The notes beneath the pieces were generated by a model. The model had not been told where the DNA came from and searched no databases. It saw only the letters and a list, made by a program, of their open reading frames with translations. Below, one piece after another: positions 19,208 to 23,366 of a DNA stretch of 64,000 nucleotides. Position 1 is the first letter of the stretch. Every line of letters begins with the position of its first letter. The DNA comes from Lutimonas halocynthiae. Lineage in GTDB: Bacteria > Bacteroidota > Bacteroidia > Flavobacteriales > Flavobacteriaceae. Location of the stretch: positions 1 to 64,000 of the forward strand of contig NZ_JAUFQO010000004.1 of the NCBI RefSeq assembly GCF_030409835.1, in the 5' to 3' direction. The position numbers and the translations under genes are program-made.

Positions 19208-19358
19208 AATGAGGTAATTATAACCTGAGGATTGCTTTTTCGACAATTCATCAATCTCATAATGATGTCGAATTATGCCTCTCCTTTGCTCAAAGTCATG
19301 ACTTTAGGATTATTTATTTACTAAGGATTCTTGACAAAATAAGCAGCACATATTTTAG

Positions 19359-19389
19359 TTGTAATTAGCTTTGGATATTCATACATTTG
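19359..19389 (+). promoter_or_regulatory. promoter of dnaX
   Basis: TTG at 19359-19361 and TACATTTG at 19382-19389 are 20 nt apart. The -7 box contains an in-frame TTG (19387), which therefore is not the start. The ATG at 19411 lies 21 nt downstream. Confidence 0.7.
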
Positions 19390-19410
19390 TTTCCTTCAAG
19401 TAGAGATCAA

Positions 19411-20490
19411 ATGGAACATTTTATTGTATCAGCCCGTAAATACCGACCACAGGTATTTAGCGATGTCGTAGGCCAACAGGCTATTACGAATACGCTGGAG
19501 AATGCGATAAAAAATAACCATTTAGCTCAAGCCTTACTTTTTACCGGTCCTCGTGGAGTTGGTAAAACAACCTGTGCCAGAATTCTTGCGAAAAGGATCA
19601 ATCAGGAAAGTATGGAAAATGCTATAGAGGATGAAGACTTTGCATTTAACATCTTTGAATTGGATGCTGCTTCAAATAATTCAGTAGACGATATAAGAAC
19701 CCTAACCGATCAGGTAAGAATTCCACCACAAACAGGAAAATTTAAAGTTTATATTATTGATGAGGTACATATGTTATCTCAGTCTGCTTTCAATGCCTTT
19801 TTAAAAACTTTAGAAGAGCCACCGGCGCATGCCATCTTTATACTTGCAACAACTGAAAAGCACAAGATCATTCCTACAATTTTATCAAGGTGTCAAATTT
19901 TTGATTTCAAACGTATTGGCGTTTTAGACATCAAAAATTATTTACATAAAATAGCCGAGGGTGAAAAAGTGGATGCCGAAGACGATGCCCTTCATATTAT
20001 TGCGCAGAAAGCTGACGGTGCATTAAGAGATGCCTTATCAATATTTGACCGCGTAGTGAGCTTTTCAGGATCTGAACTCACGCGAAAAGCAGTGTCGGAT
20101 AATCTGAATGTACTTGATCATGATGTTTATTTTCAAGTGACTGATTTACTTTTGGATAATAATATTCCACAAGTGCTGATTAGTCTGAATAATATAATGA
20201 CCAAAGGATTTGAAGGACACCATTTTATTATAGGCCTCGCTTCTCATTTTCGAGACCTGCTGGTGGCAAAAGATGCCGCCACTATTGAATTACTGGAAGT
20301 AGGTGATTCTGCAAAAAAGCTCTACCTGGAGCAATCTAAAAAATCAGACCTAAGGTTCTTGATGCGAGCCATTGATATCGCGAATGACTGCGATCTCAAT
20401 TTTAAAAGCAGTAAGAATCAACGCCTGCTAGTTGAACTGACCTTAATGAAAATCGCCTCCATCACATTTGATGGCAAAAAAAAAATCTAA
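19411..20490 (+). CDS. dnaX: DNA polymerase III gamma subunit (dnaX, 0-frame product)
   Basis: DnaX is the clamp-loader ATPase of the replisome. From ATG 19411 (MEHFIVSARKYRP) the frame gives 359 residues: Walker A GPRGVGKTT, DEVH Walker B, sensor 1, SRC finger (LSRCQIFDF) and the collar region. The zinc-binding cysteines of classical DnaX are absent, and a short acidic linker replaces them. The frame stops two codons after a run of ten A (20476-20485). The tau-specific region continues in the +1 frame, so this frame alone corresponds to gamma. Whether the split is programmed slippage or a sequencing error cannot be decided from the sequence alone. Confidence 0.92.
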   Translation: MEHFIVSARKYRPQVFSDVVGQQAITNTLENAIKNNHLAQALLFTGPRGVGKTTCARILAKRINQESMENAIEDEDFAFNIFELDAASNNSVDDIRTLTDQVRIPPQTGKFKVYIIDEVHMLSQSAFNAFLKTLEEPPAHAIFILATTEKHKIIPTILSRCQIFDFKRIGVLDIKNYLHKIAEGEKVDAEDDALHIIAQKADGALRDALSIFDRVVSFSGSELTRKAVSDNLNVLDHDVYFQVTDLLLDNNIPQVLISLNNIMTKGFEGHHFIIGLASHFRDLLVAKDAATIELLEVGDSAKKLYLEQSKKSDLRFLMRAIDIANDCDLNFKSSKNQRLLVELTLMKIASITFDGKKKI

Positions 20491-21163
20491 AAGGTTCATA
20501 GTCCCTTCTTTTCACTTTCTAACTACGCATCCAGCGGCAAAAACAGCAGTTGAACAAAAAACTGAACTGCCACAACAAAAAGAAATTCGAGTTCAGCCAA
20601 GCAGTAAACCAAGTCCAGAAAATCCTGTAAGACCAACTCAAACTCCAGCCAAAGAAATTAGCAAGCCCAAACCTATAGATCTAAAAAATTCGGGTCGAAG
20701 AAATTCAGCGCTTTCTTTATCAAGCTTAAAAAGAAACAAAGAAGAAGCAGCCAATTTTAAAAAGGGCCAAGAGCAAACAACAGACACCAAAAATCAGGCT
20801 AAAGACCCGTTTACGGAAGCGGTATTCCTAGAAGTCTGGAATACCTATGTTGAAGACCTTCATCAAAAAGGAGAAAAAATATTGGCCTCAATTCTTAAGG
20901 CTGATTCTCCGAAATTACAAGGTCACATGATACATGTTGCTTATCCTAACGAGCTGATGAAAGTCGAACTTTTAAAAGTGCGGCCGAGGGTATTGCGATA
21001 CATAAGAGAAAAACTTAATAATTACGAAGTAGATTTCGTGATTACAGTTAATGAAGACAATACAAAACGCTTTGCCTATACCCCTCAGGAAAAATACGAA
21101 TTGCTCAAAGAGAAAAACAAAGTTATCGCGCTGCTTAGAAAAAAATTCAACCTTGAGCTCTAG
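20471..21163 (+). CDS. dnaX: tau-specific C-terminal region of dnaX (shifted frame)
   Basis: This 230-codon frame overlaps the end of the gamma frame and is shifted by +1. It has a low-complexity Lys/Pro/Gln-rich linker (about residues 20-100), then a folded C-terminal part (DPFTEAVFLEVWNTYVEDL through FAYTPQEKYELLKEKN) like the tail of full-length DnaX in related bacteria. Losing one A from the A10 run, or gaining two, would join it to gamma as a tau of about 583 residues. An ATG at 20471 just before the run could also start it separately. In tau this region would bind the polymerase core and helicase. Confidence 0.75.
   Translation: MAKKKSKRFIVPSFHFLTTHPAAKTAVEQKTELPQQKEIRVQPSSKPSPENPVRPTQTPAKEISKPKPIDLKNSGRRNSALSLSSLKRNKEEAANFKKGQEQTTDTKNQAKDPFTEAVFLEVWNTYVEDLHQKGEKILASILKADSPKLQGHMIHVAYPNELMKVELLKVRPRVLRYIREKLNNYEVDFVITVNEDNTKRFAYTPQEKYELLKEKNKVIALLRKKFNLEL
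20476..20485 (+). promoter_or_regulatory. A10 homopolymer, candidate dnaX slippage site
   Basis: Ten consecutive A residues sit exactly where the gamma and tau frames of dnaX meet. The 0-frame reads GGC AAA AAA AAA ATC TAA and stops. The +1 frame reads through into tau. A-runs or A-AAA-AAG sites in dnaX are known slippage or frameshift signals in Thermus and E. coli. Confidence 0.6.
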
Positions 21164-21164
21164 A

Positions 21165-23366
21165 CTAACCTTTTACTGTCAGTCTTAAGACAGAACAAGC
21201 TGAACTATCAGCAAACTTATCCTTATTCTTACCAAGTAGAACATTTTGCCAATTTCCTTTTTCAGGAGTACCAATGATCAATAAATCATATTCAGCTGAG
21301 ATGGAAGAAATGGTTTCAATAGGTTTTTTAGCGCGTTTGACGATGACCGTTGATTGAGTTGCAGACTTTGTTAACAGCTTAGTTGAAGCCTCTTCAATCG
21401 TCTTCATATCCGTCTTAGACATATTATCAGGAACCACGTGTAAAAGCGTAAGCGAAGCACCATAAAATTGGCAGACTCTATCTGCGATGGCAACAAAATT
21501 CTTGTCCTTTCTTCCGGGTCTTAAGGCCATGACAACCTTACTAATATAGCGAACGCCATTATCCCTGAAAAGGGCAACATCAGAATTCACATGGTCTACA
21601 AACCAACCTATAGGATTTCTAACCAATAGACCCTTATGAGCTCGTGCATCCCAGCCCATCACCATCCAGTCTGCATGCGTCTGATCACTTAATTCCTGAA
21701 TCGTTTCAGATAAGTCATGTGTAACGACCGCTTCAAAATCAATCTTAACTTTTCTGGCTGTAGCTAAGAGTGACACTCTGCGCGCAAGAGAGTGAATATT
21801 AGGATTGTCCTCCATCACTGCATCAAGAAAAGTTTGATTTGGAACTTCTGTTATATTGACTGCTTGTGTTACCTCCTTCTTATTCAAGGCGGCCCCAATC
21901 TCAATGAGCATTTCAGGTGATTTTTCATTTCCTAACAAAGGAATAACAACTCCGGCGTCAGAAGCTATCTCACCATCGAGAACGGCTTTATTAATCTTGG
22001 TCATATCTATGGGCTCCCTGCCTTCAAACCTATTCTTTTTGTACAACAAATAGAGCGCTGGTCGATGACCATACTTTCTTAAGATTCCTGTTCTTGCCGT
22101 CTTCTTTCCAATTTTTAAATAAATCAAATAACCAAGAATCACTATCGTCAAAATAGCCAATAATGGAATCAGTCCTAAAAATATCAGGAGTATAATCCCT
22201 GATACAATACCAAAAATATGAACAAAAGGATAAAGTGGAGATTTATAACTTGGATTATACCATTGGGCGGAAGTTTCTCTTAGAATGATAACACAAAAAT
22301 TAACCGAGACAAACATCATGACCATAAAAGCGCTTGCCAGCTTTGCAATCTTAACCACATCGAGAAACAGAATGACCAAGGTCATCGTAATACAAGTAAC
22401 AATGATCGAAGCCACCGGAGTCAGATATTTGGGGTGTATTTTTCCCATAAAATCTGGTAACAGTTTATCCATTGCCATGGCAAAAGGGAATCGTGAAGCA
22501 GCAAGCACACCTGAATTGGCCATAGATATCAAAGTAATAACACCTATAAAAGCAGCTAGATACCCAATAGTCGAACCACCTTGGATGGTAGCGATCGTAT
22601 AAATTGGGTGCAAATCAGTTGATAATTGTTCCATCGGGATATTTCCCACTAGCGCAAAAGCCACAAATACATAAATAAGGGTCATAATAAATAAGGACAG
22701 AATCATCGCCCTTGGCAAATTTTTACTGGGATTTTTTATTTCACCAGCTATGGCAGCCACTTTGGTAACGCCTGCATAAGAAATATAAACAAAGGCAACT
22801 GTTGAAACCAGTCCCATTTTACCATCAGTATAAAAAGGATCCAGTAAATCTGGGTCAATATTTGGCAATCCAAAAATAAGCACCAAGCTTAGTGTTACTA
22901 ATGAAATACTGACAATTACTATTTGTACCTTCCCTACTTTCTTTACTCCAAAAATATTCAGAAGCAGGATTATTCCCAAAAAGAAAATAGCTACATACTG
23001 GGAAAAGCCATTAGAGGCATTGGCTAAAACCGATAAATAAGCGCCAAAACCAACCAAAGCAAACGCACTTTTAAGTAATAATGACAACCATAAACCAATT
23101 CCAGCTATTGTTCCAAATATAGGCCCAAAAGCCCTTTCTATATATAGATAAGTACCTCCTGAGGAAGGCATGGCTGTAGCAAGTTCTGATTTTGATAAGG
23201 TAGCAGGTAAAATACATATTGCTGCAAGCAAGTATGCCAGCCAAATAGAAGAACCAGTCTTAGCAGCAGCTATTCCGGGTAACACAAAAATACCACTGCC
23301 GAGCATACCTCCAATGCTTATAGCAATGACAGAGGTTAAACTCAAACTTCGTTCTAACTTCTTCAA
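21165..23366 (-). CDS. APC-superfamily amino acid permease with C-terminal universal stress domains
   Basis: This 733-residue protein has about 12 hydrophobic segments in residues 10-425. They begin with the APC signature GGMLGSGIFVLPG, the unwound TM1 of amino acid/polyamine exchangers. From about residue 445 it is soluble and holds two universal-stress-protein-like domains. The last one ends in a nucleotide-loop-like stretch (IIGTPEKGNWQNVLLG). The substrate is unknown. The cytoplasmic domains may bind ATP/AMP and tune transport. It converges with the dnaX tau frame, with one base between the stop codons, and diverges from miaE. Confidence 0.85.
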   Translation of the reverse strand: MKKLERSLSLTSVIAISIGGMLGSGIFVLPGIAAAKTGSSIWLAYLLAAICILPATLSKSELATAMPSSGGTYLYIERAFGPIFGTIAGIGLWLSLLLKSAFALVGFGAYLSVLANASNGFSQYVAIFFLGIILLLNIFGVKKVGKVQIVIVSISLVTLSLVLIFGLPNIDPDLLDPFYTDGKMGLVSTVAFVYISYAGVTKVAAIAGEIKNPSKNLPRAMILSLFIMTLIYVFVAFALVGNIPMEQLSTDLHPIYTIATIQGGSTIGYLAAFIGVITLISMANSGVLAASRFPFAMAMDKLLPDFMGKIHPKYLTPVASIIVTCITMTLVILFLDVVKIAKLASAFMVMMFVSVNFCVIILRETSAQWYNPSYKSPLYPFVHIFGIVSGIILLIFLGLIPLLAILTIVILGYLIYLKIGKKTARTGILRKYGHRPALYLLYKKNRFEGREPIDMTKINKAVLDGEIASDAGVVIPLLGNEKSPEMLIEIGAALNKKEVTQAVNITEVPNQTFLDAVMEDNPNIHSLARRVSLLATARKVKIDFEAVVTHDLSETIQELSDQTHADWMVMGWDARAHKGLLVRNPIGWFVDHVNSDVALFRDNGVRYISKVVMALRPGRKDKNFVAIADRVCQFYGASLTLLHVVPDNMSKTDMKTIEEASTKLLTKSATQSTVIVKRAKKPIETISSISAEYDLLIIGTPEKGNWQNVLLGKNKDKFADSSACSVLRLTVKG

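Follow-up and report, generated by a model that had tools for sequence, protein, structure and literature searches.

The dnaX locus of Lutimonas halocynthiae

We report that dnaX in the window, i.e. the whole stretch of 64,000 nucleotides that was analysed (Lutimonas halocynthiae, contig NZ_JAUFQO010000004.1, positions 1 to 64,000), is divided on the forward strand between two reading frames that meet at a run of ten A residues. The gamma frame, which covers the ATPase, the lid and domain III, extends over 359 codons from an ATG at 19411 to a TAA at 20488-20490; the start was set by homology, and an in-frame TTG upstream (19387) represents a possible alternative. This frame matched the NCBIfam model TIGR02397 and the Pfam models PF13177, PF22608 and PF12169, all above cut-off. 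Close to its end there is a stem-loop (20459-20474; supported by RNAfold, synonymous recoding and covariation in the family) and, one base further on, the A10 run (20476-20485), which is the candidate slippage site at the gamma/tau boundary as judged from the sequence and from relatives.

In frame 0 the junction reads GAT GGC AAA AAA AAA ATC TAA (FDG-KKK-I-stop), and this TAA closes gamma in the unslipped transcript. The +1 frame reads GCA AAA AAA AAA TCT AAA AGG, then TTC ATA GTC CCT, and is open to 21163; it carries the tau linker and C-terminal part (20486-21163, 225 codons, stop at 21161-21163). The -1 frame is closed by a TAG at 20499-20501, which arises from the ATA codon of F-I-V-P. The preliminary description of this DNA had a gamma frame ending in K-K-K-I-stop right after ten A residues and a tau tail continuing through the run in the +1 frame, and both are seen here. 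Moreover, the NCBIfam gamma/tau model NF011531 (PRK14971) matches both pieces, positions 1-367 of the profile with gamma (622.7 bits) and positions 414-613 with the tail (78.9 bits), and each piece taken alone is below the 685-bit whole-protein cut-off of this model.

The genome (3.99 Mb, 20 contigs, 99.9% complete) has 31 overlapping matches to A≥10, corresponding to 25 distinct runs, and the locus was given for 24 of these. Among the 24, only the dnaX run has both a long frame leading up to it (369 codons from stop to run) and a long continuation in another frame (225 codons), and hence we do not consider the split at A10 to be a matter of chance. The best gamma match in the named set, among the matches listed, was the MAG 'Flavobacteriaceae bacterium isolate Ww436' (91% identity), and the next ones listed were other Flavobacteriaceae MAGs, Lutibacter, Tenacibaculum and Polaribacter.

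Searching positions 19300-21300 against Rfam gave nothing relevant, the three matches being to snoRNAs and all sub-threshold. On the minus strand, convergent with dnaX, there is a large ORF (21165-23366) that by eye encodes an amino-acid permease with a stress-protein-like C-terminal part. Elsewhere in the same genome, outside the window (contig C16, near 194901), we noted an in-frame A11 within a reading frame that is open for at least 843 codons and whose protein by eye resembles a glycoside hydrolase 3/serine hydrolase fusion; a 10-pair stem (several pairs being G-U) precedes the A11, the other two frames both stop soon after it, and it is possibly a second slippage site.

Run, frame and stops among relatives

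The genus search covered 22 genomes including that of the window and gave 22 junction rows (two from genome G010 and none from G005; sequence L024 stops short of the junction). An A10 or A11 is present in all 22, i.e. A≥9 throughout, and the window layout, A10 with gamma in frame 0, was found in 16 of the 22 with the window's own row included, while six have tau in frame 0. Two single-contig genomes, G021 (100% complete) and G003 (72%), have the split of the window together with A10. For 14 of the 16 rows with the window layout the +1 tail is open for at least 100 codons, and in L014 and L016, which are short contigs, it is open up to the nearby contig end. Change per codon position in the 14 tails was 0.35, 0.25 and 0.58 for the first, second and third positions (20,116 codon comparisons). 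In this genus the phase is set by the flanking sequence and not by the length of the run.

For the family, 149 genomes were searched, of which two were also part of the genus set, and 141 further junction rows were obtained, approximately one per genus; in six family genomes the dnaX match was absent or partial. A run of A≥9 is present at the gamma/tau junction in 139 of the 141, the exceptions being L159 (no run) and L167 (A8), and in 80/80 rows of the named set, which are the best 80 of a larger number and overlap the other sets. Elsewhere in the family dnaX sequence there are seven A≥9 runs in 239 kb. Outside the family, A≥9 is present in 54/61 order rows, and outside the order in 39/59 phylum rows. 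In order family f7 (60 genomes searched, 28 rows read) the run is kept in 26 of 28 rows. The genus of G041 (22 genomes searched) gave 18 junction rows, in which the gamma stop is kept and the tau tail is open in the -1 frame and which are all without an A≥9 run. Since it is absent from these 18 and from 20 of the 59 phylum rows, the A-run is not universal. In six rows from order family f16, with very AT-rich reduced genomes of approximately 0.6 Mb, we observed A-runs at varying distance past the gamma domain, and in two of the six no A≥9 in the stretch tested. The family rows are related to one another, so row counts are not independent.

The frame of tau relative to gamma (0/+1/-1) is distributed as 115/2/20 in the family, 6/14/0 in the genus and 62/3/6 in the named set. 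For the order and phylum draws the figures are 34/3/18 and 26/0/15, which include a few rows from nearer groups, and strict sorting gives 33/3/16 and 26/0/13. These counts leave out 22 rows, 11 being duplicates and 11 having an unusable tail or a stop before the run. On a FastTree tree of the gamma proteins the layout changed at least 23 times among the 154 family and genus rows, and over 270 rows, where the states also include run-less and heptamer rows, there were at least 39 state changes; both figures are minimum numbers of changes, and some of the run-length changes confined to a single lineage could be sequencing errors. The preliminary description had proposed a comparison of run length and frame in related genomes, and what the relatives have is a kept run with differing frames, not one uniform frame without a run.

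Both non-tau frames are closed within eight codons of the run in 131/137 family, 18/20 genus, 70/71 named-set, 43/55 order and 34/41 phylum rows, compared with 24, 13, 20, 28 and 24%, respectively, when the tail was synonymously recoded. In rows with tau in frame 0, a -1 shift runs into a stop after one codon (median), and the third frame likewise stays closed (median five codons). An Ile codon before (I/V/L)(P/S) carries one of these stops; among the 91 family rows in which this motif was found, 87 use ATA there, against a background of 1,560 ATA among 6,092 other dnaX Ile codons. In the window the TAG at 20499-20501 shuts the -1 frame, and transcripts with one extra A would therefore also give a gamma-length product. 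A slippage site that supplies all three frames has to have a stop in each of the two non-tau frames, whereas a -1 ribosomal site can do with one.

Three genomes of order family f7, G188, G217 and G384 (the last two represented in the f7 rows as L402 and L403; G217 also as L342 and G188 as L343), have no A-run. Instead they have CCA AAA AAG followed by a stop, with tau in the -1 frame, and a downstream stem that begins 5-6 nt past the A_AAA_AAG heptamer (-26.5 kcal/mol, z -4.4 in G188; -20.3 kcal/mol, z -2.3 in G217; -21.6 kcal/mol in G384). This looks like E. coli-type ribosomal frameshifting in a reversed layout, and the direction of the shift fits.

A stem-loop adjoining the run

The window hairpin consists of CCATCA (20459-20464), the loop CATT (20465-20468) and TGATGG (20469-20474), followed by one C and then the run. 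The commonest hairpin in the family, CTCTATCA-NNNN-TGATGGAG, is placed straight against the run, and these arms are present in 65 of 140 rows. For the window the predicted stability is modest (RNAfold, -6.1 kcal/mol on 42 nt) and the fold of 72 nt has a z of -1.76, with 12 of 200 shuffles equally good; the stem score was matched by 1% of 200 synonymous recodings (row L002).

Stems ending at most 3 nt from the run were compared with in-gene positions and with synonymous recoding. The stem exceeds the in-gene 95th percentile in 101/137 family and 19/22 genus rows; when it is set against synonymous recoding, 90 of the 137 family rows and 14 of the 22 genus rows are at the 0.05 level. Outside the family the 0.05 level is reached in 8/57 order rows (four same-family) and 3/41 phylum rows, and in order family f7 the stem was found in 4/21 rows. 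The plain folding energy of 42 nt is at the 0.05 level (synonymous recoding) in 51/140 family and 4/22 genus rows, and the folding energy upstream of the run was rejected as a general signal, being weak (7/58 order and 2/41 phylum rows). For this reason the case for the stem-loop is built on the stem test together with covariation, and for the family only. A hairpin that by eye is conserved in the run-less genus of G041 was also dropped, the synonymous-recoding fractions for its 12 distinct rows being 0.085-0.705.

Among 51 distinct rows in one register, chosen by eye, 77% of the cells pair, compared with 38-59% in slid controls, and 27 cells have changed on both sides compared with 13.5 in shuffles, a number reached by 0/500. 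Including all 67 distinct rows of the same phase, 70% pair (slid controls 38-58%; reached by 0/500 shuffles) and 37 cells have changed on both sides (21 when shuffled, again 0/500; slid controls 11-27). Counted as pairs instead of cells, double changes are unremarkable, 167/500 shuffles being as high for the 51 rows and 111/500 for the 67, and the number of further pair types is not unusual either (18/500 and 53/500, respectively). Codon choice is close to uniform in the 52 rows that encode ASITFDGE: GCC in 52, TCT in 50, ATC in 52, ACT in 50, TTT in 48, GAT in 52 and GGA in 52, against gene-wide backgrounds of 28, 25, 18, 26, 81, 75 and 32%.

The stem-loop is accordingly a family trait, kept at synonymous sites and covarying, and is not general outside the family; we treat it as such because it is scarce elsewhere, because folding energy is weak and because the window fold has a z of only -1.76. 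Neither the stem-loop adjoining the run nor the kept stop in the third frame had been noticed in the preliminary description.

Proposed slippage, rival explanations and known systems

Our data suggest that programmed transcriptional slippage very probably allows the single dnaX gene to supply both clamp-loader subunits. This reading, also put forward in the preliminary description, is favoured by the comparison with relatives, since these keep the run, the nearby stops and a small hairpin. RNA polymerase crossing A10 would produce transcripts with A9, A10, A11, A12 and so on; those with A10 or A11 would reach a stop a few codons later and yield gamma, and those with one A fewer or two more (A9 or A12) would put the tail in frame and give tau, in each case by ordinary translation. 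We infer that such slippage occurs, at some ratio of the products, and that the stem-loop has a role in it: folded in the nascent RNA in the exit channel, with a hybrid consisting entirely of rA:dT as at an intrinsic terminator, it would promote realignment. The RNA:DNA hybrid is 9-10 bp (PMC5009743), approximately the length of the A10 run, and the geometry would be that proposed in the same source for the Roseiflexus element.

The second subunit would also be made if ribosomes shifted frame on the A-run, by -1 at A_AAA_AAA in the relatives and by +1 or -2 in the window. A_AAA_AAA is a slippery heptamer, 20 of the 137 family rows carry tau in the -1 frame, the tau-in-frame rows have a stop almost at once after a -1 shift, and one clade has the canonical heptamer with a downstream stem. 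Against this, the window and 13 other genus rows that were kept have tau in the +1 frame, beyond the reach of a -1 shift, the third frame is closed as well, runs of 9-13 are longer than a heptamer requires, and the single 72-nt fold for the window has the upstream hairpin and long-range pairing and no compact downstream stem. We consider it unlikely that ribosomes alone account for the second subunit, and they may slip on the A-run in addition to transcriptional slippage; as far as sequence comparison goes, transcriptional slippage accounts for the pattern better than ribosomal frameshifting in one direction. The preliminary description had cited both E. coli and Thermus as precedents, of which the Thermus-like slippage stands and the E. 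coli-like shift does not, because a tail in the +1 frame is unreachable by a -1 ribosomal shift.

That the split might be a sequencing or assembly error, the true gene being one frame that encodes tau only, was named as the main alternative in the preliminary description, and homopolymers are error-prone and the genome is a draft in 20 contigs. Given that the split and A10 recur in the same phase in 16 of the 22 genus rows (the window's included, and the single-contig G021 and G003 among them), that the phase is set by the flanking sequence and that both off-frame stops are kept, we regard an error as extremely improbable. Equally improbable is decay of the gene to gamma alone with the tail as a relic: frame 0 does stop ahead of the tail, but in the 14 genus rows of sufficient length the tail is open, its changes are biased towards third positions, and it is an ordinary part of a single-frame tau in 115 of 137 family rows. 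The tail could also be a separate polypeptide, with translation starting from ATG 20471 or coupled to the termination of gamma, and this ATG is indeed in the tail frame; in the run-less genus of G041 a tail-frame ATG is present 40 nt before the gamma stop in 12/12 distinct N-free rows. In the common family arrangement the frame opened by the ATG equivalent to 20471 stops after approximately ten codons (by eye), so this ATG is not a conserved start of the tail, and tau is there one ORF. A separate tail would also leave the kept run, stops and stem-loop unexplained, and we judge it highly unlikely; the separate production from 20471 suggested in the preliminary description finds no support in the relatives.

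With transcriptional slippage as the preferred reading, Flavobacteriaceae dnaX, with its split, its frame flips and its conserved run, stops, tail and (in the family) stem-loop, is rather likely to represent an old, selected recoding module, in which the frame flips repeatedly and which can be swapped for a ribosomal cassette. The parts of the module would be a terminator-like stem-loop in the nascent RNA, an A9-A13 run directly after it that extends over the whole RNA:DNA hybrid and, behind the run, a stop in each frame other than that of tau. With every frame supplied by slippage, it would be immaterial which product stands in frame 0, and so the frame of dnaX, an essential replication gene, could drift and flip.

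According to a review (PMC3290774), most bacteria outside the enterobacteria and Thermus keep no dnaX frameshift signature and may not make gamma. The present data suggest that the whole family Flavobacteriaceae and much of its phylum keep such a signature, and annotation from sequence only would tend to label these dnaX genes as truncated or frameshifted. A kept gamma product would bear on the old question whether gamma matters, and the family, with its many stem variants, three layouts and one clade with a ribosomal cassette, constitutes a natural experiment on stem-loop-assisted slippage. Apart from Antonov et al. 2013, we found nothing in the open-licence literature that describes dnaX of Bacteroidetes/Flavobacteria, nor any paper on the combination reported here or on its spread in Flavobacteriaceae.

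In E. coli dnaX, as described in PMC5009743 and PMC3711429, an A_AAA_AAG heptamer, an SD-like element and a downstream stem give a -1 shift only, with tau in frame 0. The window gene resembles it in that gamma and tau would come from one gene with the gamma stop directly after the site, and differs in having no AAG in the run, a +1 tail and no compact downstream stem (one fold). In Thermus thermophilus dnaX, slippage at A9 gives about equal amounts of gamma and tau (Larsen et al. 2000; PMC1088944, PMC5009743). The window likewise has a poly-A at the gamma/tau boundary (A10, 20476-20485) and, shortly after it, a stop in each of the two frames without tau (TAA 20488, TAG 20499). Thermus as described there has tau in frame 0 and A9, whereas in the window frame 0 encodes gamma, the run is an A10 and a stem-loop adjoins it. 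The Thermus layout, i.e. tau in frame 0, is that of 115/137 family rows, mostly with A10, and the window dnaX is predicted to work like Thermus dnaX with the layout reversed. The two-ORF dnaX type of Antonov et al. 2013 comprises 17 fs-genes from 12 genera, nine with 10 As, in which tau needs a frame change and for which transcriptional slippage was proposed (PMC3711429). The window is of this type, tau requiring a frame change at a poly-A and the gamma stop being in frame 0; in the wording of that paper the 17 are -1 at the DNA level, while the window genus is +1 and 20/137 family rows are -1. The same source names Chlorobi for shorter runs, and its A10 species may include relatives of the window; we found no stem-loop, tau-in-frame relatives or frame flipping in its description of the type. 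The Roseiflexus IS630 element (Penno et al. 2015), as presented in PMC5009743, has stem-loop-mediated slippage on a U5C5 motif with a one-base deletion only. There as in the window (20459-20474, one base between) an RNA stem-loop is directly 5' of the slippage motif, but in the family of the window the motif is an A9-A13 run from which every frame could be reached, and the gene belongs to the core replication machinery. Taken together, slippage at the Thermus A9, two-ORF A10 dnaX and hairpin-stimulated slippage are already known and each cover a part of what we describe, and the apparent novelty lies in how far the arrangement extends through the family, in the flips of frame, in the pair of off-frame stops and in the hairpin.
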